A DNA stretch of 64,000 nt from the NCBI GenBank assembly GCA_903825445.1, contig CAIKAS010000006.1, positions 1 to 64,000 of the forward strand. The letters run 5' to 3'. The stretch is from an uncultured Acidobacteriia bacterium. Its GTDB lineage: Bacteria; Acidobacteriota; Terriglobia; Bryobacterales; Bryobacteraceae. The translations under genes and the position numbers were made by a program. The notes beneath the pieces were generated by a model. That model did not search any database. It was not told the origin of the DNA and saw nothing but the letters and a program-made list of their open reading frames with translations. Shown piece after piece: positions 35,048-44,917 of this stretch; within the stretch, counting starts at the first letter, position 1, and every line of letters starts with the position of its first letter.

Positions 35048-36153
35048 TGGCGTTATTTCCTGCCGCCGCGGCGATTCTGGTCGGTTGTGGTGCCATTTAC
35101 AACCTGCTCGCAATCGCCGGGGCCGTCCGCTTCAGTCGCGCACTGCCCCTTTCGCGATACCGTCCGCCCGTCTCCATTCTGAAGCCCGTGCGCGGAAGAG
35201 ATCCCGGCTTCTTCGACGCGATTTACTCGCACGCCCATCAAAGTTATCCCGAGTTTGAGATTCTCTTCGGCATCTCACAACCCGGCGACCCCGCTGTTCA
35301 GGACATTGAGCGACTCCAGCGCGGCTTTCCCTCGCTCTCAATACGCATCATCGACACCACCAACGACGCCCCCAACGGCAAAGTGGGATCGCTGGAAATC
35401 CTGGCCCGCGAGGCAAAGTTCGACATTCTGCTGGTCAATGACGGCGACATCACCGTGGAACGCGACTACCTGAAGAGCGTAGTGAGTCTGCTGAGTGATC
35501 ACAAAGTCGGTCTTGTAACCGGAATGTATCGTGCGAGAGGAGCTTCGATCGCCGCCAATGCCGAAGCGCTCGGCATTATTACGGAGTTTGTCCCGAGCGT
35601 ATTAGTCGCACGACTCCTCTCATCGGGTGGATTCGCGCTTGGCGCGACCATGGCATTCAGCAAAGAAGATCTTGCTGGAATCGGCGGTTTTGCCGCAATT
35701 CGCGACTACCTTGCCGACGATTACCAGTTGGGCGCCCGCATCGCGGCACTTGGCAAGAGAATCGCCATGTGCGATTCAGTGGTAGTCACGAATCTCGGTG
35801 CCGGCTCATGGCACGACGTGTGGAAGCATCAGGTCCGCTGGTCGCGAACCATTCGCGTGTCGCGGCCCGTCGGATACGCTGGTTATCTGGTGACACAGGC
35901 GACGCTTTGGTGCCTGCTTGCCGCGCTGACAGGACACTGGAGAATTGCTCTGGCTGGCGAGCTTGTGCGGCTCATCGCCGCCGGAACCGCGATGTGGACC
36001 ATGGGCGACTACGAAATGTCCCACCTTGCCTTCGTCCCGCTGCGAGATCTGTTCGGGTTCGCGGTCTGGTGCGGTGGAATGTTCGGCAACACCGTGGAAT
36101 GGCGTGGCATCCGGTTTCGCTTAAAACGCGACGGAAGGATAGAACCGGTCTAA
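35044..36153 (+). CDS. hpnI: HpnI, hopanoid-associated glycosyltransferase (GT2, ceramide-glucosyltransferase-like)
   Basis: 369 residues. An N-terminal TM helix leads into 'RYRPPVSILKPVRGRDPGFFDAIYSHAHQSYPEFEILFGI', as in HpnI and ceramide glucosyltransferase. 'DILLVNDGDITVERDYL' holds the DxD-like metal site, 'SSGGFALGATMAFSKEDLAGIGGF' the acceptor loop and 'DDYQLGARI...HQVRWSRTIRVSRP' the (Q/R)xxRW motif. C-terminal TM helices follow. It transfers N-acetylglucosamine to bacteriohopanetetrol in known systems. The start overlaps the previous stop (ATGA); the end overlaps the convergent RidA gene by four bases. Confidence 0.92.
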   Translation: MMALFPAAAAILVGCGAIYNLLAIAGAVRFSRALPLSRYRPPVSILKPVRGRDPGFFDAIYSHAHQSYPEFEILFGISQPGDPAVQDIERLQRGFPSLSIRIIDTTNDAPNGKVGSLEILAREAKFDILLVNDGDITVERDYLKSVVSLLSDHKVGLVTGMYRARGASIAANAEALGIITEFVPSVLVARLLSSGGFALGATMAFSKEDLAGIGGFAAIRDYLADDYQLGARIAALGKRIAMCDSVVVTNLGAGSWHDVWKHQVRWSRTIRVSRPVGYAGYLVTQATLWCLLAALTGHWRIALAGELVRLIAAGTAMWTMGDYEMSHLAFVPLRDLFGFAVWCGGMFGNTVEWRGIRFRLKRDGRIEPV

Positions 36154-36536
36154 GCAGTCTTCGGCTTGTACGCCACGCAGTCGATTTCCACCTTGATATC
36201 CGCCGCGAAGCCGCAAACGATTGTCGAACGCGCAGGTTTGGCGTTACCGAAAAACTCAATGTAGACCTCGTTCATAGCCGCGAAGTCGTTGCCGTCTTTG
36301 ATGTAAACACCCACGCGAACCACATCGGCAAGCGTGGCGCCTGCGCCTTCCAGAACCAGCTTCACGTTGTTGAGAGCTATGCGTGTCTCATGCTGAACGT
36401 CGCCGCTCGAGAGCTGATTCGTAGCCGGATCTACCGGCACTTGGCCGGAGACGAAAATAAAATCGCCTGCGCGCACGGCCGGTGAATAAGGTCCGCGCGG
36501 AGCGGGGATTCCTGGTGGACTGAGTCTTTCGATCAT
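36150..36536 (-). CDS. RidA family reactive-intermediate deaminase
   Basis: 128 residues from ATG 36536 (an in-frame TTG at 36542 is less likely). Signature segments are 'GPYSPAVRAGDFIFVSGQVP', 'LEGAGATLADVVRVGVYIKD', 'ARSTIVCGF' with the substrate Arg, and 'VEIDCVAY' with the Glu. The family hydrolyses enamine/imine intermediates released by PLP enzymes. It follows trxB directly and may be the last gene of the iron-cluster transcript. The paralogue group (RidA versus Rid2-7) is not resolved. Confidence 0.9.
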   Translation of the reverse strand: MIERLSPPGIPAPRGPYSPAVRAGDFIFVSGQVPVDPATNQLSSGDVQHETRIALNNVKLVLEGAGATLADVVRVGVYIKDGNDFAAMNEVYIEFFGNAKPARSTIVCGFAADIKVEIDCVAYKPKTA

Positions 36537-36538
36537 GA

Positions 36539-37462
36539 TCAATGTCCTTCGTGTTCGAGTAAGCGCTCGGCTTCAATAGCAGCCATGCAACCCGCACCAG
36601 CTGCCGTAATCGCCTGCCGGTAAACGCGATCCTGCACGTCGCCCGCGTGGAACACGCCGTGGATGTTCGTGCGCGCGCCGCCGTGAGAAAGCAGATAGCC
36701 ATCCGGATCCAGGTCGAGTTGGCCCTTGAAAACCTGCGTGTTTGGAATGTGGCCGATCGCGATGACCAGGCCGTCCACATCGCGCATTTGAGTCTCACCG
36801 GTGACCAGATTGCGCAGCCGAACCGAGGTGACAAGGTTCTGGCCCAGATCGAAAACCTCTTCGATGGCCGTGTTCATGATGAACTCTATCTTCGGGTTTG
36901 CCTTCGCGCGGTCCAGCATGATCTTGGAAGCGCGGAAGGTGTCGCGGCGATGCACCAGCGCCACCTTGCGGCCGAAGCGTGTCAGGAAGTTCGCTTCTTC
37001 CATGGCGGAATCGCCGCCACCCACCACCATAATTTCCTTATCGCGATAGAAGAAGCCGTCGCAGGTAGCGCAGGAACTCACCCCGTGGCCGATCAGCTTC
37101 TGTTCTGACGGCAGATCGAGCCATCGGGCCTTCGCGCCGGAAGCGATAATCAGCGTCCGGGTCTCGATCCACTCCCCTTCCACCTTGAGCCGGAACGGGC
37201 GTTTCGACAGATCGGCTTCGCTCACTTCGCCGTCCTGGTAGATGGCGCCGAAACGCTCCGCCTGTTTCTTAATGTTCTCCACCAAATCGGGGCCGTTGAT
37301 GCCTTCCGGAAAGCCCGGAAAGTTCTCGACTTCAGTGGTGAGAGAAAGCTGGCCGCCAATCTCCAAACCCTTGATCACGAGCGGTTTCAGACCGGCCCGC
37401 GCAGTGTAAACGGCAGCTGTGTTTCCGGCGCAACCGGAACCGATGATGACGACGTTATGCAT
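36539..37462 (-). CDS. trxB: Thioredoxin-disulfide reductase
   Basis: 307 residues. FAD motif 'VVIIGSGCAGNTAAVYTAR' at the N-terminus; redox-active C131-A-T-C134 in 'SSCATCDGFFYR'; NADPH motif 'VVGGGDSAMEEANFL'; 'ARTNIHGVFHAGDVQDRVYRQAITAAGAGCMAA' at the end. Standard TrxB length. It reduces thioredoxin with NADPH in the cytoplasm. It lies 21 bases after the ATPase-DtxR gene on the same strand; thioredoxin-like genes also accompany the related Campylobacter iron locus. Confidence 0.94.
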   Translation of the reverse strand: MHNVVIIGSGCAGNTAAVYTARAGLKPLVIKGLEIGGQLSLTTEVENFPGFPEGINGPDLVENIKKQAERFGAIYQDGEVSEADLSKRPFRLKVEGEWIETRTLIIASGAKARWLDLPSEQKLIGHGVSSCATCDGFFYRDKEIMVVGGGDSAMEEANFLTRFGRKVALVHRRDTFRASKIMLDRAKANPKIEFIMNTAIEEVFDLGQNLVTSVRLRNLVTGETQMRDVDGLVIAIGHIPNTQVFKGQLDLDPDGYLLSHGGARTNIHGVFHAGDVQDRVYRQAITAAGAGCMAAIEAERLLEHEGH

Positions 37463-37483: not shown

Positions 37484-38617
37484 TCAGATGCCCTTCAGAC
37501 CGCTCAGGATGCTTTGCGCTTCCATGGAATCGAGAACGCGCCTCTCCTCACAGCAAGGGCCGCGTGGAATTCGGCTGCCATGCGGGCAAGCGTCCGGATG
37601 GCCGAGGAGCGAGCACATGCGATCTGTAACTTCCGGACTGAGAATATGTTCGAACTTGCAGGCGCTGGCTTCTATTTCGTCCTCATCGTGAATTCCCAGA
37701 ACGTCGCGGAAGAGGCGCTCGGCCAGACGGTGACGCCGGATAACGTCGCGCGCGCGTGCTTCCCCCGCGGGAGTAAACTCGCCTTCGCCATTGCGGACTG
37801 CCACCAGGCCAATGCCGGCCATCGTATTGATCAGCTTGCGCCACTGCACTTCGGTGAAGCTGTGCGATTCCACGTGCCCGCCCGGTTCACCGCGCGTCCA
37901 CAAATGTTCCAGCACCTCGTCGAAGTCCTGATTCTCTTCCGCCGAGAAGACCAGCAATTCTTTGATGCGGCCATGCTCCAGATGGACGCGACGGTCGGCA
38001 AGCTTGCCTGCGTTTTCGTCGTGCGTCACCATCACGATAGTGCGGCCTTGTCCGTGCAACCGGCTTAGCAGATCAAACACAATGCGCTGATTCTCGGCGT
38101 CCAGGTTGCCAGTCGGCTCGTCCGCCAGAATGATCTTCGGATCGTTGACAAGTGCGCGGGCAATGGCAACGCGCTGCTGTTCCCCACCGGAAAGCTGTGA
38201 TGGCAGATGCATCGCGCGGTCGGCCAGGTCCACTTGGCGAAGTGCGTCGAGCGCTTCTTTCTCATCGGTCATGCTGTGGAAGAACTGGGCCAGCATCACG
38301 TTTTCAATCGCCGTGAGATGCGGCACCAAATGGAACTGCTGGAAGATGAATCCGACCGTCTCGCTCCGAAACCGGACCAGGTCGCTGCGGCGAAGCTTTG
38401 AAGTATCCGTGCCACCGATGAGCAACTGCCCGCTGGTGGCCTGATCGAGACAGCCGATAAGATTCAGCAGGGTGGTCTTGCCGGAACCGGATGGCCCCAT
38501 GATGGCGATCCATTCACCACTGTGGGCCGTGAAGTTGATATTGTCGACGGCCCGCACGGCGGTGGCACCTTCGCCGTAGGCTTTGGTTACGCCGATGAGT
38601 TCAATCAAAACGCTCAT
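37484..38617 (-). CDS. ABC transporter ATPase fused to a DtxR/MntR-like metal-sensing regulator
   Basis: 377 residues from ATG 38617, which has AGGGGTGAG upstream; an in-frame GTG at 38629 is possible. Residues 1-~220 are a MacB/LolD-type ATPase: Walker A GPSGSGKT 41-48, signature LSGGEQQ 142-148, Walker B ILADEP 163-168. Residues ~228-352 align with an entire DtxR-type repressor. They start with a helix-turn-helix-like part ('[14 protein letters not shown]', '[24 protein letters not shown]'). The dimerisation/metal domain '[19 protein letters not shown]...ACKFEHILS' follows, with H296, E300, C320, E323 and H324 at DtxR ligand positions, and the closing '[12 protein letters not shown]'. It presumably powers the two permeases upstream and senses Fe(II)/Mn(II). 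A final Cys-Cys (355-356) is extra. Confidence 0.9.
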
Positions 38618-38621
38618 TCGT

Positions 38622-39737
38622 TCACTCACCCCTCAGGATAACCGCCGGCTGAATATTCCAGATGCGCGCCGTGGCGATCGCCGTCGCCAGCGTCGAGACG
38701 AGAAGCATCACGGCGCCGACTCCGGCAAACACCAGCCAGTCCGGTTCCACGCGGAAGACCCCGCCGAAAACGTCCCGACCTATGAGTGCCGCAGCGAAGA
38801 TGCCGCCGAGATAGCCCAGCAGCGTTGCCACAACTGCCAGCGTCGCGGACTCGGAGATAAAGAATGCGGCGATGCGGCGTTCCGCGCCGCCGAGTGCCTT
38901 CATGATGCCGATTTCTTTCGAGCGCTCGATCACCATTTCGCTGAAGTTGCTGGTGACGCAAAGCGTCGTGATGGCGAGAATCAAAAACGTGAGCAAAAGC
39001 AGCGCCGCCCGCATCTTCACGATGACATTCGATTCCGTACCCGCCACGGCGCGAACAGTCCGGATATCCACGGCCGGAAAATCCGCCGCGAGATTCGCGC
39101 GGATAGCTTCCAGCCGATCACCCGGCGCCTGAATTTCAACGACGCTGGCCTCGCTGGAGATACCGGAGATCGACGCGGCGGATGCGAAGTCGACGATCAT
39201 CTCCTGGTCTTCTGATCCGCCTGTCGAGACAATGCCCGCGATCGTGCAGTTGAGTCCGCCACGACCCTGGGCGAATGTCGTCCCCACACCCAGCCGCAGC
39301 CGGGCAGCCAGGAACTCACCGGCCAGGCAACTTCCGGGTCCGATGTTTCGTTCGCCCCGAACCTGCCAGTAGGCGGGTACGGAAACGCTCTCCACTCCGG
39401 CTATCGGAAAGATCTGGCGCTCGTGCGTCGTCTCGACCGTTTTGGGGTCCAGGATTTGGCCGCTGGTTACCAGAAGCGGCGAAGCCTGAGCCCCCAGGCG
39501 TTTGGCTGCGTCGACGACCGACAACGGAACGGTGGCACCGTCCACCGGAACGGCCACCAGGTTCGCGCCGTAGTTGCGAAACTCGTCGCGAATCCGGTTG
39601 GCGACAGAAGCGTACACGCCAAACATTACGGTAGCCAGTGCGGCACCCACTGCGAGCGCTCCGAAGGCCAGCAGGAGCCGCTGCTTTCGATATTGCAAAG
39701 CGCTCAGGCTGAAACGGAGGAAGAAGCGCCAGGACAT
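38622..39737 (-). CDS. FtsX/MacB-type ABC permease, iron cluster subunit 1
   Basis: 371 residues from ATG 39737; an in-frame GTG at 39749 would overlap the upstream gene. One TM helix near 20-45, a periplasmic MacB_PCD-like domain (~50-240: 'IRDEFRNYGANLVAVPVDG', 'GSCLAGEFLAARLRLGVG'), then three TM helices with the FtsX core 'TLCVTSNFSEMVIERSKEIGIMKALGGAERRIAAFF'. It ends 4 bases before the ATPase start. Together with the next permease it would form the ABC partner of the Ftr1 permease, as in Cj1661/Cj1662. Confidence 0.9.
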   Translation of the reverse strand: MSWRFFLRFSLSALQYRKQRLLLAFGALAVGAALATVMFGVYASVANRIRDEFRNYGANLVAVPVDGATVPLSVVDAAKRLGAQASPLLVTSGQILDPKTVETTHERQIFPIAGVESVSVPAYWQVRGERNIGPGSCLAGEFLAARLRLGVGTTFAQGRGGLNCTIAGIVSTGGSEDQEMIVDFASAASISGISSEASVVEIQAPGDRLEAIRANLAADFPAVDIRTVRAVAGTESNVIVKMRAALLLLTFLILAITTLCVTSNFSEMVIERSKEIGIMKALGGAERRIAAFFISESATLAVVATLLGYLGGIFAAALIGRDVFGGVFRVEPDWLVFAGVGAVMLLVSTLATAIATARIWNIQPAVILRGE

Positions 39738-39741
39738 GGCC

Positions 39742-40989
39742 TCAGACACCCTCCCGGAGGATCACTGCAGGTTCCAGACGCAATGCCCGGCGCAGCGGTT
39801 GCGCCGCGCCGGCCAGCGCCACCAGCATCGCGGCCAGCATGATGATGAGCGGAAGTATCCACGAAATTTCAATCGCATCGTGAAAAACGGATTCGCCAAC
39901 CACACGCGCCAGCCACACTCCGGTAAATGAGCCCATAACTCCACCAACCAGACCAATCAAAGCGATCTCGGAACCAAGCAGCGTGGCCACCAGCCAGCGG
40001 GCGCCACCTATCGCCTGCATGATCGCGATTTCACCCCGGCGCTCCATCATCGTCGTAGCCGTCAGACTCCAGACGGTAAGCCCAGCCGAAAGCAGAGCGG
40101 CCAGCGTAATCAATGCCATCAAGCCGCTGATCTTGCTCAGTACCTTGCCTTCGGAATCCGCCACGCGCCGAACGGGACGCGCCTCGGTACCCGGTATTGC
40201 GGCTGCAATCTGATAAGCGATGGAGGTGACGTAATTCGTGCAGCTCCACTTCTCTAACTCCTTCGAGGTCATGTTCTTCGGATCTTTGCGTGCAAAGTCA
40301 TCTTCCGGTTTCGTAAGCGCCGCAACATCGATCCGGTCCACTACGCCCGGCTGATGAGCCAGTTGTTGCAAACGCGCCAGCGGGAGCAGAACGCGGTCGT
40401 CCGCATCGTCGCCGGATGAAACTACACCTGCAACGTGACACGGCGCGCCGAGGACGTTAATGTCTGTCCCAGCCTTCCAGTTGTTTCGGCGGGCCACTCC
40501 CGCACCAATCATGCACTGGCCCGAATCATCCGACGGCCAGTTGCCCTGCGTAACTTGCCACGACGGGTTGACTGCCCGAATACCGCTCGTTTGAGTCGTG
40601 CCGTCTGGCGCCTGATAATCGTGCGCGAACCAGACGCCCTGAACCGTCAATGGGCCATCGTGCGCCAAGAGAGATGGCGCAAAGCCGGTGATATTCAGGC
40701 CCCAGAAAATCGACTTGATCTTCGGGACCATCGTCTCATCGATAAAACTTGCTGTACCAGATGCCGATGTTGTCACGCCACCCACACCACCCGTAAGCGA
40801 AGCCGCCTGCGACGTCACAACGATGTTGGCTCCGGCCGCGCGCAGTTCCAGGTTCATCTTGTCGCCAATCGACAGCATCACGCCAAGCATGGCGGTTGCC
40901 ACCGATGTGCCGAGAGCGATCGCGGCGACGATCAGCGCCTTGCGCCGCGGCGAGCGACGAATGGAATCGCGCACGAAACGGACAATCAT
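39742..40989 (-). CDS. FtsX/MacB-type ABC permease, iron cluster subunit 2
   Basis: 415 residues, ATG 40989. N-terminal basic stretch and TM helix ('SIRRSPRRKALIVAAIALGTSVATAMLGVMLSIG'), a periplasmic domain of ~230 residues including 'CMIGAGVARRNNWKAGTDINVLGAPCHVAGVV', then the FtsX membrane core 'TVWSLTATTMMERRGEIAIMQAIGGARWLVATLLGSE' and two more TM helices. It is a paralogue of the downstream permease, so the transporter is likely a heterodimer. The FTR1 gene ends 15 bases upstream. Confidence 0.9.
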   Translation of the reverse strand: MIVRFVRDSIRRSPRRKALIVAAIALGTSVATAMLGVMLSIGDKMNLELRAAGANIVVTSQAASLTGGVGGVTTSASGTASFIDETMVPKIKSIFWGLNITGFAPSLLAHDGPLTVQGVWFAHDYQAPDGTTQTSGIRAVNPSWQVTQGNWPSDDSGQCMIGAGVARRNNWKAGTDINVLGAPCHVAGVVSSGDDADDRVLLPLARLQQLAHQPGVVDRIDVAALTKPEDDFARKDPKNMTSKELEKWSCTNYVTSIAYQIAAAIPGTEARPVRRVADSEGKVLSKISGLMALITLAALLSAGLTVWSLTATTMMERRGEIAIMQAIGGARWLVATLLGSEIALIGLVGGVMGSFTGVWLARVVGESVFHDAIEISWILPLIIMLAAMLVALAGAAQPLRRALRLEPAVILREGV

Positions 40990-41004: not shown

Positions 41005-42264
41005 CTATCCGGCATTGCGAAATACCTTCACTCCACGCTCAAAGGCCTCTTCATCGATCACCAAAACATCGGCGTCGATGTGCGATTTCAACGGGATCGG
41101 ATTGCAACCGCCGCCAGTACCGATGCTGGAGATCACGATATCGGAAGCGCAATTGAGGCAGATCACTTCATGGCCCTTCTGGTAGTATCCCTGAGTGCCA
41201 CAGATGGCACAAGCGTCGTACGCGACCGCAAGAGTGTGGTCGGGCTTTTCAATGACGATAAACCGCACATGCACGCCCTGGTCTTCAATCACGAAGCGGT
41301 GCAGATTGCCATCATTGACGCTGGCCACCGGAATACGGACAGCGGCATTTTCGAACACAACTGGCTTCGCGACCGACAGCGCGGTGAGTTCGCGCGTGTA
41401 AATGAACTCGGCCGTGATGAGCAGAATGAACAGGCAGGATGCCGCACCCAACGCCGTCATCCAGAGTTTTTCGCGGCGCGCGGTCCAGAGTGCTTTACGT
41501 CGGGCAGCACCCTCCAGGCCGTCGGTCTTCGGCGCCAAACGACCGCGCCACTCCAGAAGAACCATAACCGCGGCAAGGGCCAGAATTGTAATGAAGAAAA
41601 AGAATTCGTTCTTTACGATAGGGCCGATGATGGCCATTTCACTGCTGCTGCTCGGCAGAATCTGGCTCTCGGAAAGCTCATGCAGCCCGGTGATCGCAAG
41701 TTGAAAAACAACCACCATCAGGATCACGGTAGTCATGCGAAAAAACTGCTTGAGATTGATCCGGATCGTACCGCGCACAAAGCTGACCCCAAACAGGACG
41801 GCGAGACCGATTCCCAACACAGCCCCCAGGCCTTCCAGGATGCCCGAGGTATTGAGCCGAAGCGCCGCAAGCAGTAAAACCGTCTCCACGCCTTCCCGGA
41901 AGATCATCAGAAACACAAATGCGAAAACGCCCCAGCCTGCCCTCCCGCCCGCCGTCCCTTTTTGCAAACCAGTTTCAATTTCCGATTTGATGTGCGCACC
42001 GTGGCTGTTCATCCAGACCACCATGGAGAACACAAAAGCTGCGCTTACCAGGAGTACCCAGCCCTCATAAGCGTCTTCGTTGAGATCAATCTTCGCAAAG
42101 CCCCAGGCAGCGATAAAGCTAGCAATTACAGCACTCAGGAGGGCACGGTACACAGCGGGCATCAGATCCAGGCGGCCGATCCGCTTGACGTAGGCGACAG
42201 CGATGGCGATTACCAGCGCGGCTTCGACGCCTTCCCGTAGTGTGATCACGAAGGTCTGGAGCAT
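41005..42264 (-). CDS. Ftr1-family iron permease fused to DUF2318 Fe-S-like domain
   Basis: 419 residues. Two REGVE motifs at 10-14 and 123-127 are the iron-binding RExxE helices of Ftr1/EfeU. About seven TM helices occupy 1-230 and one more ~265-290. Residues ~300-400 are a DUF2318 domain with paired cysteines C352/C355, C369/C372 and C387 ('DACAICGTQGYYQKGHEVICLNC'). The same arrangement is found in Campylobacter Cj1658/Cj1660-like proteins of the P19 iron system. It is the first gene of the four-gene operon and has a dyad over its probable start site. No P19/FetP gene is adjacent. Confidence 0.93.
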   Translation of the reverse strand: MLQTFVITLREGVEAALVIAIAVAYVKRIGRLDLMPAVYRALLSAVIASFIAAWGFAKIDLNEDAYEGWVLLVSAAFVFSMVVWMNSHGAHIKSEIETGLQKGTAGGRAGWGVFAFVFLMIFREGVETVLLLAALRLNTSGILEGLGAVLGIGLAVLFGVSFVRGTIRINLKQFFRMTTVILMVVVFQLAITGLHELSESQILPSSSSEMAIIGPIVKNEFFFFITILALAAVMVLLEWRGRLAPKTDGLEGAARRKALWTARREKLWMTALGAASCLFILLITAEFIYTRELTALSVAKPVVFENAAVRIPVASVNDGNLHRFVIEDQGVHVRFIVIEKPDHTLAVAYDACAICGTQGYYQKGHEVICLNCASDIVISSIGTGGGCNPIPLKSHIDADVLVIDEEAFERGVKVFRNAG

Positions 42265-42268
42265 AGAG

Positions 42269-42293
42269 GCAACTCAGTTGCAATTCGATTGTA
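42269..42293 (-). promoter_or_regulatory. Candidate promoter and operator of the Ftr1-ABC iron operon
   Basis: On the minus strand TACAAT (plus coordinates 42288-42293) could be a -10 box. Directly downstream a dyad GCAAC-TCA-GTTGC (42269-42281) covers the expected start site, 5 bases before the Ftr1 ATG. This is a suitable place for an iron-responsive repressor. It does not match the classical DtxR/IdeR box, and no clear -35 is seen. Confidence 0.4.
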
Positions 42294-42388
42294 GCAGAGC
42301 AATGCGGACAGAATTGGTCCTGATTCAGAATTGAGCGGAAATTTGGGACTGAGGCCTTGGAAACTGAAATGCTCTGCCGACAGGCCCG

Positions 42389-44917
42389 TTACGAAGCTGC
42401 GGCCGTAATCTCCGGGGCTTCCATTTCGGCGGGAGCATGTGTTCCGCCCAACGAAACGGCCTCGGCCAACTGCATCGGAACTACCGAACTGCGGTCCTTC
42501 TTGCGCAGACGTTTGCCTTTATACATGCGTCTGTCAGCTTCAGCGAGAAGTTGTTCCGCGTCTGTACCGTCTTCGGGGAAGTTCGCAATGCCCACGCTGA
42601 TCGAGAGAGTACTCGGTTCCGGCGTCGCTTCCCCAGCCTTGCGTGCAACCGATCGCATGCGCTCCACCTTCAACTCCAGTTCCTCTTCCGTCGCGGTGGG
42701 GATCAGCATGACGAACTCGTCGCCGCCCAGTCGCGCCACGTAGTCGTTCGGTCCGCAGTGTTCACGCAATCCGTTCGCGACGATGCGCAGCACGCGGTTG
42801 CCTGCAAGGTGGCCGAAACGATCGTTCACCTGCTTGAATCCGTCCAGATCGGCGACAACCACCGCCAGCGTCGTACCCGTCCGCGCCGCTCGCGAAACCT
42901 CGTGATCGAGCGACAGGAAAAGCGATCGTGCATTCGGCAGATTCGTAAGATAGTCGGTCGTGATGGAAGTTTCCAGCAGCCGCTGACTCAGAGCATTTTC
43001 AACCGCCAGCGCCACTTTCGAACTGATCGCCTGCAGGATGCGGAGATTCTCTTTGCTAAACGCGTCGCGTTCCGCGCGATAAAGCGCCAGCACGCCAAGC
43101 ACTCCGTTCACCCCATCAAGCGGCACTGCCAGCGCCGAACGCAGCGTGCTGTATTTGGTCGGATCGTTCAGGTAACCGGCTTCCACCGAGGGATTCCCGT
43201 TCAGAATCGACTTGTTATTTTCTGCCACCCAACCGGAAAGGCCCTGGCCGACCGGTATTTCGAGAGAAGTGAATAACCGAAGATTCTCGCCGCAGACGTA
43301 TTCCGGTGTCAGCTTTTCTTCACGACGAATGTAAACTGCCAGCGTTTCGTAAGGAATAAGACGCTTCAGCCGGACTCCAACAAACGCCAGCGCTTCCTGC
43401 AAACTGAGCGCGTGCCCCAGATCCTGTGTCAGTTCGTAAAGCATCTGTGCTTCCTGCGTGGCAGCCGCAATAGTAGCCATCGGGTCGCCAGCCGGAACAC
43501 CAGCCGGGGAACCCGCCGCGGCGGGAGTCGTTGGTTCGGTCTCTGTCGATGAGGCAAATCCGGTGGCAGGCGCCAGACCGCGCTCAATCTTTACGTCCAT
43601 CGAAAGCTTGCTGCCCGTTTTTTCGCTGCCAGCACTGACGGCCATGCGCTCCAGTTCCACATAGCGGCGTTTTAGAATGTCCACCACCACCGGATCGAAA
43701 GCCTTGCCCGATTCACCCACCACGATCTTCATCGCTTCATCAAGTGGCATGGCACGGCGATACTGGCGATCTGAAGCCAGCGCATCCAGGCAATCGACCG
43801 CAGAGAGAATTCGCGCACCCACGGGAATATCCTCGCCCGCAAGTCCGTACGGATACCCGGTGCCGTCCCACTTTTCATGGTGGGCACGCACAATCGGAAC
43901 TACCGGATACGGGAACTTAACCTCTTCCAGAATCTCCGCGCCAACCAGCGGATGGATCTTCATTTTCTCGAACTCTTCCGGCGTCAGCTTACCCGGCTTC
44001 GAAATGATGTGTTCCGGAACGGCGAGCTTGCCGATGTCATGCAGCAGCGCCGCGGCCTGCAGCGCATCCAACTCGTCCGGATTCATTTTGATCTCGCGTC
44101 CGATTTCAGTCGCATACACACGCACGCGCTGCAGGTGATCGTGTGTAGTCGCATCTTTAGCTTCAATGGCGAGCGCCAGCGCTTCGATAGTTCGCAGGTG
44201 AAGACCCGCGATTTCTTCCACGTGAACCTTATCGTTCTCAAGACGGGTCAGATACGTTCTGTATTGGCGATAAACGAAGGCCACCAGGATCAGCAGTACT
44301 GTCGGAGCCTGCCAGTGAGTCCGCTTGCTGAGTTCTCCCAGAATGACAATCTGCCACGCCACCACCGCGGCCGCAAGGTGGTATTGCATCGCCCAAAAAA
44401 ACGTTCCATACCAGGTGGCGTAAATGGACTTGCCCTCAGTCAGGGCAACTACGCCCGCCACCATAACCGTATTCACGATGAAATAGACTGCGGCAGTAAG
44501 AGCGAGCAACAGAAAATTGTCTTCGCCCAGAAGCTTATTCAATGGACCGTGGAAAACTGTGTGGGAAGCGATCACGGCCAGACAAAACGAGCAGGCCGTA
44601 AATGCCACCTGAATCGCTCTGGGTCGGTTCTTTGCCTTCCAGAGACACTGGACGATAGCACCACCAAAGGCAATCGCGAGCGCCTCAGGCAGCGTGAACT
44701 TGGCAATACCGACCAATATAAACAGAAAATTGACCGACAAGGACGCTAGTTTCACCATCGGCAGGCGAACTTTCAGGCCCGATGTCAGCAGGGTAATCAG
44801 AAAGAAAAAAGCGAAAAAATAAGGATCGGGGGACTTAAAGCGTAGAAATTCCACCACCAGGCCGGTGAGCCCGGACCCGAGAATCAGAGCGATGTAGAAT
44901 TTGGCCCGTAGCGGCAT
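42389..44917 (-). CDS. Membrane HD-GYP / GAF / GGDEF cyclic-di-GMP enzyme
   Basis: 842 residues. Residues ~8-220 hold about seven TM helices (MASE-like). The HD-GYP domain spans ~240-420 with HDIGK at 293-297 and 'HHEKWDGTGYP' at 346-356. The GAF domain is ~490-645. The GGDEF domain is ~655-805 with intact 'RLGGDEF' (731-735). The inhibitory RxxD I-site is absent: residue 722 is Gly and 725 is Asp. Both the phosphodiesterase and diguanylate cyclase sites look complete, so the protein could make and break c-di-GMP under control of the membrane and GAF sensors. It is divergent from the sigma-54 activator. Confidence 0.93.
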   Translation of the reverse strand: MPLRAKFYIALILGSGLTGLVVEFLRFKSPDPYFFAFFFLITLLTSGLKVRLPMVKLASLSVNFLFILVGIAKFTLPEALAIAFGGAIVQCLWKAKNRPRAIQVAFTACSFCLAVIASHTVFHGPLNKLLGEDNFLLLALTAAVYFIVNTVMVAGVVALTEGKSIYATWYGTFFWAMQYHLAAAVVAWQIVILGELSKRTHWQAPTVLLILVAFVYRQYRTYLTRLENDKVHVEEIAGLHLRTIEALALAIEAKDATTHDHLQRVRVYATEIGREIKMNPDELDALQAAALLHDIGKLAVPEHIISKPGKLTPEEFEKMKIHPLVGAEILEEVKFPYPVVPIVRAHHEKWDGTGYPYGLAGEDIPVGARILSAVDCLDALASDRQYRRAMPLDEAMKIVVGESGKAFDPVVVDILKRRYVELERMAVSAGSEKTGSKLSMDVKIERGLAPATGFASSTETEPTTPAAAGSPAGVPAGDPMATIAAATQEAQMLYELTQDLGHALSLQEALAFVGVRLKRLIPYETLAVYIRREEKLTPEYVCGENLRLFTSLEIPVGQGLSGWVAENNKSILNGNPSVEAGYLNDPTKYSTLRSALAVPLDGVNGVLGVLALYRAERDAFSKENLRILQAISSKVALAVENALSQRLLETSITTDYLTNLPNARSLFLSLDHEVSRAARTGTTLAVVVADLDGFKQVNDRFGHLAGNRVLRIVANGLREHCGPNDYVARLGGDEFVMLIPTATEEELELKVERMRSVARKAGEATPEPSTLSISVGIANFPEDGTDAEQLLAEADRRMYKGKRLRKKDRSSVVPMQLAEAVSLGGTHAPAEMEAPEITAAAS

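Follow-up and report, generated by a model that had tools for sequence, protein, structure and literature searches.

Why should the ATPase of an apparent iron transporter end in a domain that resembles an iron-dependent repressor? This question is raised by a gene at positions 37484-38617 of a 64,000-nucleotide stretch of DNA (the window, here always meaning the whole stretch) from contig CAIKAS010000006.1 in assembly GCA_903825445.1 of an uncultured Acidobacteriia bacterium. The gene occupies a minus-strand frame that runs from an ATG at 38617 to the stop at 37484 and encodes 377 amino acids; a GTG at 38629 is a possible alternative start. The original prediction, made from the letters alone and naming no strand, described an ATP-binding cassette (ABC) ATPase followed in the same frame by a whole DtxR-family repressor. 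The single frame stands, since PF00005 and PF02742 both match within its 377 codons, but the repressor is not whole, as detailed below. We consider it probable that the sensor half of a DtxR protein, joined to a FetD-type ATPase, acts as a gauge of Fe(II) and most likely puts a brake on the ATPase, and thereby on the uptake of iron. The parts of the gene are the following.

37484..38617, minus strand: FetD-type ABC ATPase fused to a DtxR-like sensor domain; the ATPase part is 57.7% identical over 215 amino acids to FetD of the E. coli plasmid fet cluster.
37952..38617, minus strand: ATPase domain, residues 1-222, with Walker A, LSGGE signature and Walker B (PF00005, ABC_tran, E 3.7e-36).
37550..37942, minus strand: predicted DtxR-like domain, residues 226-356, with helix 1, helix 3, wing and dimerisation/metal region, and without helix 2 (AlphaFold2, Foldseek, HMMER profile).
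37562..37774, minus strand: PF02742 metal-binding/dimerisation stretch with His296, Glu300, Cys320, Glu323 and His324 (Pfam).
37550..37615, minus strand: Cys motif C335-x8-C344-P-H-G-x2-I-P-x-G-x-C355-C356 (alignment of fused and free-standing domains).

The fusion is real. In the window protein, Fe_dep_repr_C (PF02742) matches at E 1.1e-25 over its entire 70-position profile, and a search of the genome itself recovered the same stretch, 37562-37774, free of stops (E 4.7e-26). The Walker A, LSGGE and Walker B motifs are invariant in the window protein and in 13 fused relatives that were aligned from end to end and are 49-56% identical to it. Across the phylum, where the original prediction had proposed to look for the architecture, the best 30 loci were taken from a sample of 199 genomes (its own included), and the fusion was found in at least 15 of these genomes; in all 15 loci an FTR1-FtrD protein, permease 1, permease 2 and the ATPase-DtxR protein follow in that order. 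When named genome contigs were scanned for the domain by itself, at least 594 stretches matched, 546 of them confirmed. The best 80 loci comprise 65 intact fusions, two broken ones (L065 and L079, at a masked run or a contig end), and 13 free-standing proteins. The complete upstream set (FTR1-FtrD and two permeases) is present in 55 of the 65 intact fusions, and the other ten are so close to the end of their contig that 0 to 3.2 kb of upstream sequence is left. The phylum and database sets overlap (L116 and L015, on equally long contigs, are probably the same). Since so many relatives carry the fusion intact, in at least 15 phylum genomes and 65 database loci, a sequencing error, which the original prediction had considered, or a chance join is excluded. 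Among the 67 fused loci of the best 80, only L128 is labelled as lying outside Acidobacteriota. This locus, assigned to Betaproteobacteria, carries an acidobacterial-type operon, groups with acidobacterial rows in a tree of the ATPase part, and probably comes from a mislabelled metagenome bin.

Structure prediction gave the appended domain a DtxR fold, as had been anticipated. The AlphaFold2 model of the window domain, built with 57 aligned sequences, has a pLDDT of 93.5 and a pTM of 0.87. A Foldseek search of the PDB returned 65 matches at E ≤ 0.001 (best 7b24_A, E 2.7e-7, TM 0.71 on the query), and the 50 of these that were listed are all DtxR/IdeR/MntR-type repressors. An HMMER profile of 13 fused domains matched IdeR/DtxR best (E 1.6e-22, 7b24) and MntR at 3.2e-6. 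For comparisons of whole domains we assembled 54 fused domains, from 15 of the phylum set (that of the window included; L008 and L017 removed by hand as near copies) and the 65 loci, thinned at 85% identity and without L058 and L064 (missed by the cutting pattern) or the broken L065 and L079. PF02742 matches all 54. The domain thus shares with IdeR, DtxR and MntR its predicted fold, its dimer region and the positions of the primary metal site.

We aligned 42 of the fused domains with the 13 free-standing ones to follow the metal site. In the translated frame, His296, Glu300, Cys320, Glu323 and His324 lie where the original prediction had placed them. The last four are invariant (42/42 fused, 13/13 free-standing), and His296 is His in 37 of the 42 fused and in all 13 free-standing domains. 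The earlier proposal that Asp231 and Glu234 match the N-terminal ligands of MntR was partly right: both residues are present, but the register is one off. Glu234 and Glu237 align instead, and we take them from the helix alignment to be the likely counterparts of Asp8 and Glu11 of MntR. Asp231 is Asp in just 11 of the 42 fused domains, so that this register was abandoned, while Glu237 is Glu in 40 of 42 and in 13/13 free-standing domains, and position 234 holds Glu (31), His (9) or Asp (2) among the fused and Glu in 13/13 free-standing domains. The primary ligand set is complete in the window protein, and these patterns support a conserved DtxR/MntR-like site in the fused domain that would bind metal. 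Cys320 occupies what we take to be the position of Cys102 in DtxR and Glu99 in MntR, Cys presumably marking the DtxR/IdeR type and Glu the MntR type. The Cys points to iron, which would then be the bound metal rather than manganese. The genome's own DtxR with a helix-turn-helix (HTH; locus L001, contig C45) has Glu at this position.

Four further residues, Cys335, Cys344, Cys355 and Cys356, are all present in 42/42 fused and 13/13 free-standing domains. We considered this motif as a mark of a kind of DtxR protein that does not bind DNA and rejected it, since one HTH-bearing archaeal DtxR (the second gene of L131) has the same motif, which is therefore not specific to the fusion. This archaeal gene (L131, 7645-8067), with its intact HTH, lies directly behind a feoB-linked DtxR-FeoA gene.

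The DNA-binding half of the fused domain, judged by its profile matches and predicted structure, is eroded. The DtxR HTH profile, PF01325, has no match in the window protein at E ≤ 1. At E ≤ 0.1 it matches 2/54 fused domains (weakly, best E 0.024), 0/13 free-standing proteins and 1/30 proteins of a feoB group described below (E 0.009), as against 28/28 ordinary repressors used as a control (best E 2e-21). These controls are 26 of the best-scoring 30 PF02742 loci plus L001 and the second gene of L131, without L163 (missed by the pattern) and L166 to L168 (wrong or cut frames), and they therefore lean towards typical repressors. The free-standing and feoB sets share two genes (L181 and L182, which are L077 and L126). 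In the AlphaFold2 model, made for the window domain only, helix 1 (226-242) is followed by a loop and helix 3 (256-268), and helix 2 of the HTH is gone. On this evidence we set aside the idea of a full DtxR repressor; the fused form differs from IdeR, DtxR and MntR in lacking both a PF01325 match and an SH3/FeoA domain.

The sequence of the helix 2-3 stretch is variable. Its mean pairwise identity is 0.27 in the fused (n=54), 0.28 in the free-standing (n=13) and 0.28 in the feoB-group proteins (n=30), against 0.46 in the ordinary repressors (n=28). For comparison, the metal/dimer stretch gives 0.70, 0.73, 0.69 and 0.65, respectively. The mean net charge of the helix 2-3 stretch is -0.9 in the fused, -1.0 in the free-standing and -3.6 in the feoB-group proteins, and +1.1 in the ordinary repressors. 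Moreover, a His-rich insert pattern matched in 35 of the 65 fused loci, and the alignment places this insert in the wing. A conserved metal stretch next to a degraded HTH is what is expected if the domain kept sensing and lost DNA, and DNA binding by the fused domain is hence unlikely. The insert, PHPPxxHxHKxxVNPCH (L015-L017, L069, L072 and others), could be an extra metal site.

The operon around the gene gives the domain its context. Its other genes are these.

38622..39749, minus strand: permease 2, FetC-like, of the FtsX/MacB type (PF02687 E 3e-16); 29.8% identical to FetC.
39742..40989, minus strand: permease 1, FetB-like, of the FtsX/MacB type (PF02687 E 5.3e-14); 37.2% identical over 425 columns to FetB.
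41005..42264, minus strand: FTR1 iron permease fused to an FtrD-like (DUF2318) domain, i.e. FetM and FetA in one chain (PF03239 E 4.4e-35, PF10080 E 1.2e-28).
36539..37462, minus strand: pyridine-nucleotide-disulphide oxidoreductase (PF07992 E 3.6e-47), presumably thioredoxin-reductase-like (TrxB), directly downstream of the ATPase-DtxR gene.
36150..36542, minus strand: RidA-like gene, a name we take from its sequence, overlapping the oxidoreductase gene; relatives were seen in other loci.

The stop of permease 2 lies 4 bases ahead of the ATPase-DtxR start. Because each operon protein matches its Fet counterpart, the operon is, by homology, a Fet-type iron system with FetM and FetA in one chain. 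Its FTR1 part is 32.1% identical to FetM and its FtrD part 46.4% to FetA of the E. coli plasmid fet cluster. Two REGVE motifs occur in the former, REGxE presumably being the permease motif. The FtrD part has CAIC-x13-CLNC-x14-C, in keeping with the DUF2318 motif CxxC-x13-CxxC-x14,15-C (PMC6083913). As in the fetMP-fetABCDEF systems of C. jejuni and E. coli, there are an FTR1 permease, a DUF2318/FtrD protein, two FtsX-like permeases and an ATPase, and the window keeps the order FetM-A-B-C-D. Unlike in those systems, FetM and FetA form one chain, the periplasmic iron protein FetP/P19 (PF10634) has no match in 15/15 fused genomes at E ≤ 0.001, and FetD carries a DtxR-like domain, whereas the E. 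coli plasmid FetD has 231 amino acids and no such part. Given the lack of FetP/P19, we name it a P19-less Fet-type system, not a full fetMP system. The periplasmic FetE/FetF thioredoxins are not adjacent to FetD, whose neighbours are the TrxB- and RidA-like genes; no search for these thioredoxins was made elsewhere in the genome. The TrxB- and RidA-like genes (36150-37462) continue the operon. Since a TrxB relative occupies the same place in 9/65 fused loci, this branch may have a reducing function here. No sigma-70-type promoter matched upstream of the operon, and the sole inverted repeat found in 42200-42460 was weak, a 77% complementary 13-mer with a 24-base spacer.

Published work on C. 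jejuni ties the system to iron: disruption of fetA, fetB, fetC or fetD leads to poorer growth under iron limitation (PMC10783030). In our sample, FeoB was found in 2/15 fused genomes as against 150/184 other genomes of the phylum (152/199 overall), genomes that are not independent of each other. This suggests that the Fet system is a main iron entry in the organisms with the fused ATPase. The scarcity of FeoB tells of the Fet system and not of the domain, because the ten genomes of a genus with an unfused ATPase, discussed below, are likewise without FeoB.

How might such a domain work? DtxR proteins dimerise through the PF02742 region, and ABC ATPases work as dimers. In MetN and ModC, a C-terminal domain on the ABC ATPase binds the imported substrate in the cytosol and stops the ATPase (PMC10710835). 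This precedent, together with a DtxR dimer that would suit a place beneath the ATPase dimer, leads us to propose Fe(II)-dependent feedback on FetBCD. FetD would have gained, at its C-terminus, the half of a DtxR-family repressor that senses metal and dimerises, and FetBC, of the FtsX/MacB type, would with the ATPase drive or support iron entry through FTR1-FtrD. Rising cytosolic Fe(II) would fill the DtxR site (Glu234, Glu237, His296, Cys320, Glu323 and His324, with Glu300 nearby) and so alter the pose of the paired sensor domains beneath the ATPase dimer. The change of pose would slow ATP hydrolysis and with it the uptake of iron, just as the C-terminal domains of MetN and ModC, which are unrelated to this one, respond to methionine and molybdate. 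The original prediction had likened the domain to the C-regulatory domain of MetN. The DtxR fold, the conserved metal site and the iron operon fit this comparison; that the ATPase is the target and inhibition the sign of the effect is what we infer. As in MetN and ModC, the extra domain is C-terminal on the ATPase subunit, whereas here its fold is DtxR-derived, its proposed ligand is a cytosolic metal ion and the ABC unit is of the FtsX/MacB type.

The same eroded sensor occurs next to a second iron importer. All 13 free-standing proteins carry PF02742 and FeoA (13/13). They resemble the fused form in the eroded HTH, the ligands and the Cys motif, and differ in carrying FeoA, in mostly pairing with feoB and in lacking the ATPase fusion. 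Directly upstream lies feoB in 6/13 loci (FeoB_N by Pfam in five; in the sixth, L126, confirmed by the search of its genome for feoB). We searched nine of the 13 genomes. In eight, the free-standing protein was the only PF02742 protein found, and in eight the only FeoA domain found sits on it, the ninth having one further weak match; feoB was found in eight of the nine, in two on another contig. As these genomes are mostly metagenome bins, the absences are soft. In the phylum group of the genome of L126 (G205, labelled Deltaproteobacteria), 50/148 genomes match at E ≤ 1e-25, although the weaker of the 50 matches may be ordinary repressors. The 30 best-scoring loci of this group, taken with ~1.4 kb upstream, form the feoB group mentioned above: all 30 proteins have PF02742 and FeoA, and feoB lies upstream on the same strand in 27. 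The remaining three are L194, at a contig edge, L209, with feoB-like sequence downstream, and L191, with none in 1464 bases.

A third layout consists of an N-terminal membrane helix (seen by eye), PF02742 and two FeoA stretches. It lies directly upstream of feoB in 4/4 acidobacterial loci, and PF01325 matches 0/4 of these proteins.

L174, 5717-6763, minus strand: membrane-helix DtxR-FeoA protein.
L175, 2348-3388, plus strand: membrane-helix DtxR-FeoA protein.
L176, 6642-7847, minus strand: membrane-helix DtxR-FeoA protein.
L177, 6002-7054, minus strand: membrane-helix DtxR-FeoA protein.

In L174 and L175 this gene stands beside a divergent ordinary DtxR-type repressor. At least 48 genomes have feoB and PF02742 within 3 kb on one strand, in rows picked by eye and without a proper denominator. 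In L103 (4057-7633), what precedes the DtxR-FeoA gene is not feoB but a set of three genes, for an FtsX-like permease (by eye), an ABC ATPase and a protein of the membrane. A 2004 study of Geobacter tabulates an operon "feoB1 - R" with a Fur site (PMC545781, Table 3), whose "R" is possibly this DtxR-FeoA protein. DtxR-FeoA proteins were set aside by hand in a FeoA survey (PMC8980893), and FeoA is reported to have sometimes an additional domain (PMC8749426).

Taken together, the fused Fet form and the feoB-linked forms indicate that two unrelated iron importers have each, in a different way, become linked to an eroded sensor of this kind. We put forward, tentatively but as a serious possibility, a class of "retired" DtxR proteins that would no longer bind DNA and would serve as plug-in cytosolic iron gauges for unrelated importers. 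It would comprise FetD-fused forms in Acidobacteriota, FeoA-bearing forms encoded in feoB operons (Deltaproteobacteria, a Thermodesulfovibrionia genome, Zixibacteria, Saganbacteria and an archaeon), and, in other Acidobacteriota, membrane-anchored forms that have two FeoA domains and whose genes immediately precede feoB.

Several observations weigh against a sensor that has left DNA for transporter control. The helix 2-3 stretch has a median length of 30 residues in the fused, 28 in the free-standing and 28 in the feoB-group proteins, against 31 in ordinary repressors. This near-normal length means that the loss of helix 2 rests solely on the model of the window domain, and it led us to reject a shortened HTH as a mark of the whole family. 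Some ligands vary: His296 is replaced by Gln in 4/42 and by Tyr in 1/42 fused domains, and Glu237 by Gln in 2/42. The four conserved Cys could be ligands of a different metal or of a cluster. Seven of the 13 free-standing loci, six of them labelled Nitrospirae, have no feoB within the stretch examined. The presence of FeoA does not in itself point to a role in transport, since ordinary repressors carry it too: the genome's own DNA-binding-type DtxR (L001) does, and MntR of P. gingivalis, with two FeoA domains, binds DNA (PMC4805248). The substrate of FetBCD is described as unknown in C. jejuni (PMC10783030), so that an inhibition of iron uptake could be indirect.

The domain is also dispensable in one lineage. 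In a genus of the same class, 10 genomes (L018-L027) have retained a close FetD-type ATPase that lacks the DtxR part, together with the same operon partners (FTR1-FtrD and two permeases in 3/3 loci with surroundings examined, L047, L051 and L180). In a quick, midpoint-rooted tree of the ATPase part, L018, which stands for this genus, falls inside a starred fused set. This reads as one loss, which makes loss of the domain in the genus probable. The tree is weak, with 21 of its 43 inner branches open, and it has four changes between fused and unfused labels (at least two forced by starred branches), the same as with shuffled labels; the tree therefore does not tell the number of fusion gains. 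In L180 the ATPase lies ~4 kb away from the second permease.

The strongest rival explanation, which we nonetheless hold to be unlikely, is that the domain accepts iron or forms a redox or Fe-S site, its ligands and Cys335, Cys344, Cys355 and Cys356 receiving iron at the cytosolic face or sensing the redox state of that iron instead of acting back on the ATPase. The invariance of the four Cys would be accounted for, the TrxB-like gene comes next in the window, and a part in the redox side of iron transport has been suggested for FetABCD (PMC10783030). Yet the Cys motif may simply be inherited, being present in the HTH-bearing archaeal DtxR, and the preserved DtxR ligands and dimer region are those of a sensor. 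Less probable still is a domain that merely dimerises, holding the ATPase subunits together, or whose metal switches the ABC unit on, for instance as protection from excess iron. The DtxR dimer region does match the need of the ATPase for a dimer, and FtsX/MacB-type units are mostly mechanical or exporting, so that either direction is conceivable; strict ligand conservation would, however, be needless for mere dimerisation, and the fet genes are those needed under iron limitation in C. jejuni (PMC10783030).

We give least credence to a domain that still binds DNA, either as the membrane-tethered repressor of the original prediction or after proteolytic release as in YtgC-YtgR of Chlamydia (PMC5599777), and represses the operon at high iron: helix 3 and the wing are still predicted and the helix 2-3 stretch is near full length in relatives, but this stretch is variable and net negative, helix 2 is missing from the window's model, PF01325 is all but confined to the controls, the wing holds a His-rich insert in more than half of the fused loci, and the region upstream offers only the weak repeat described above. 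The comparison with YtgC-YtgR (CT069) also bears on novelty. In that protein, too, a DtxR-family domain is fused to a subunit of a metal ABC transporter, but the partner is the permease, and YtgR is cleaved off, binds DNA and represses; here the partner is the ATPase and the HTH is eroded. Its finders noted permease-repressor fusions in 11 phyla (PMC5599777). The statement that no transporter of this arrangement had been described thus holds for the ATPase fusion, of which, as of DtxR domains acting as transporter regulators, we found no description in the open-licence literature; it does not extend to permease-DtxR fusions. A regulatory C-terminal domain on an ABC ATPase was already known, and what would be new is its origin in a retired repressor.

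Iron importers are viewed as subject to mainly transcriptional feedback (Fur, DtxR), and a sensor built into the importer's ATPase would give instant control. If the proposed Fe(II) gauge on FetD is right, iron uptake would be throttled directly at the protein and not only at the gene. If the wider class of retired DtxR proteins exists, genes taken from their sequence for iron-dependent repressors would in fact encode subunits of transporters. A conserved sensor in the ATPase would explain why the metal site is kept across many acidobacterial families while the grip on DNA is lost. Two questions would become approachable: the control and role of the Fet ABC unit, and the function of FeoA for FeoB, the latter because the sister family joins the same sensor physically to FeoA.

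Finally, some fused proteins vary at the junction of the two parts. A regular expression written for a Cys-rich insert was badly made and gave 0 matches, despite a Cys-containing insert (e.g. CPLVDTPDCC) that lies between the ATPase and DtxR parts in L070, L080 and L082.

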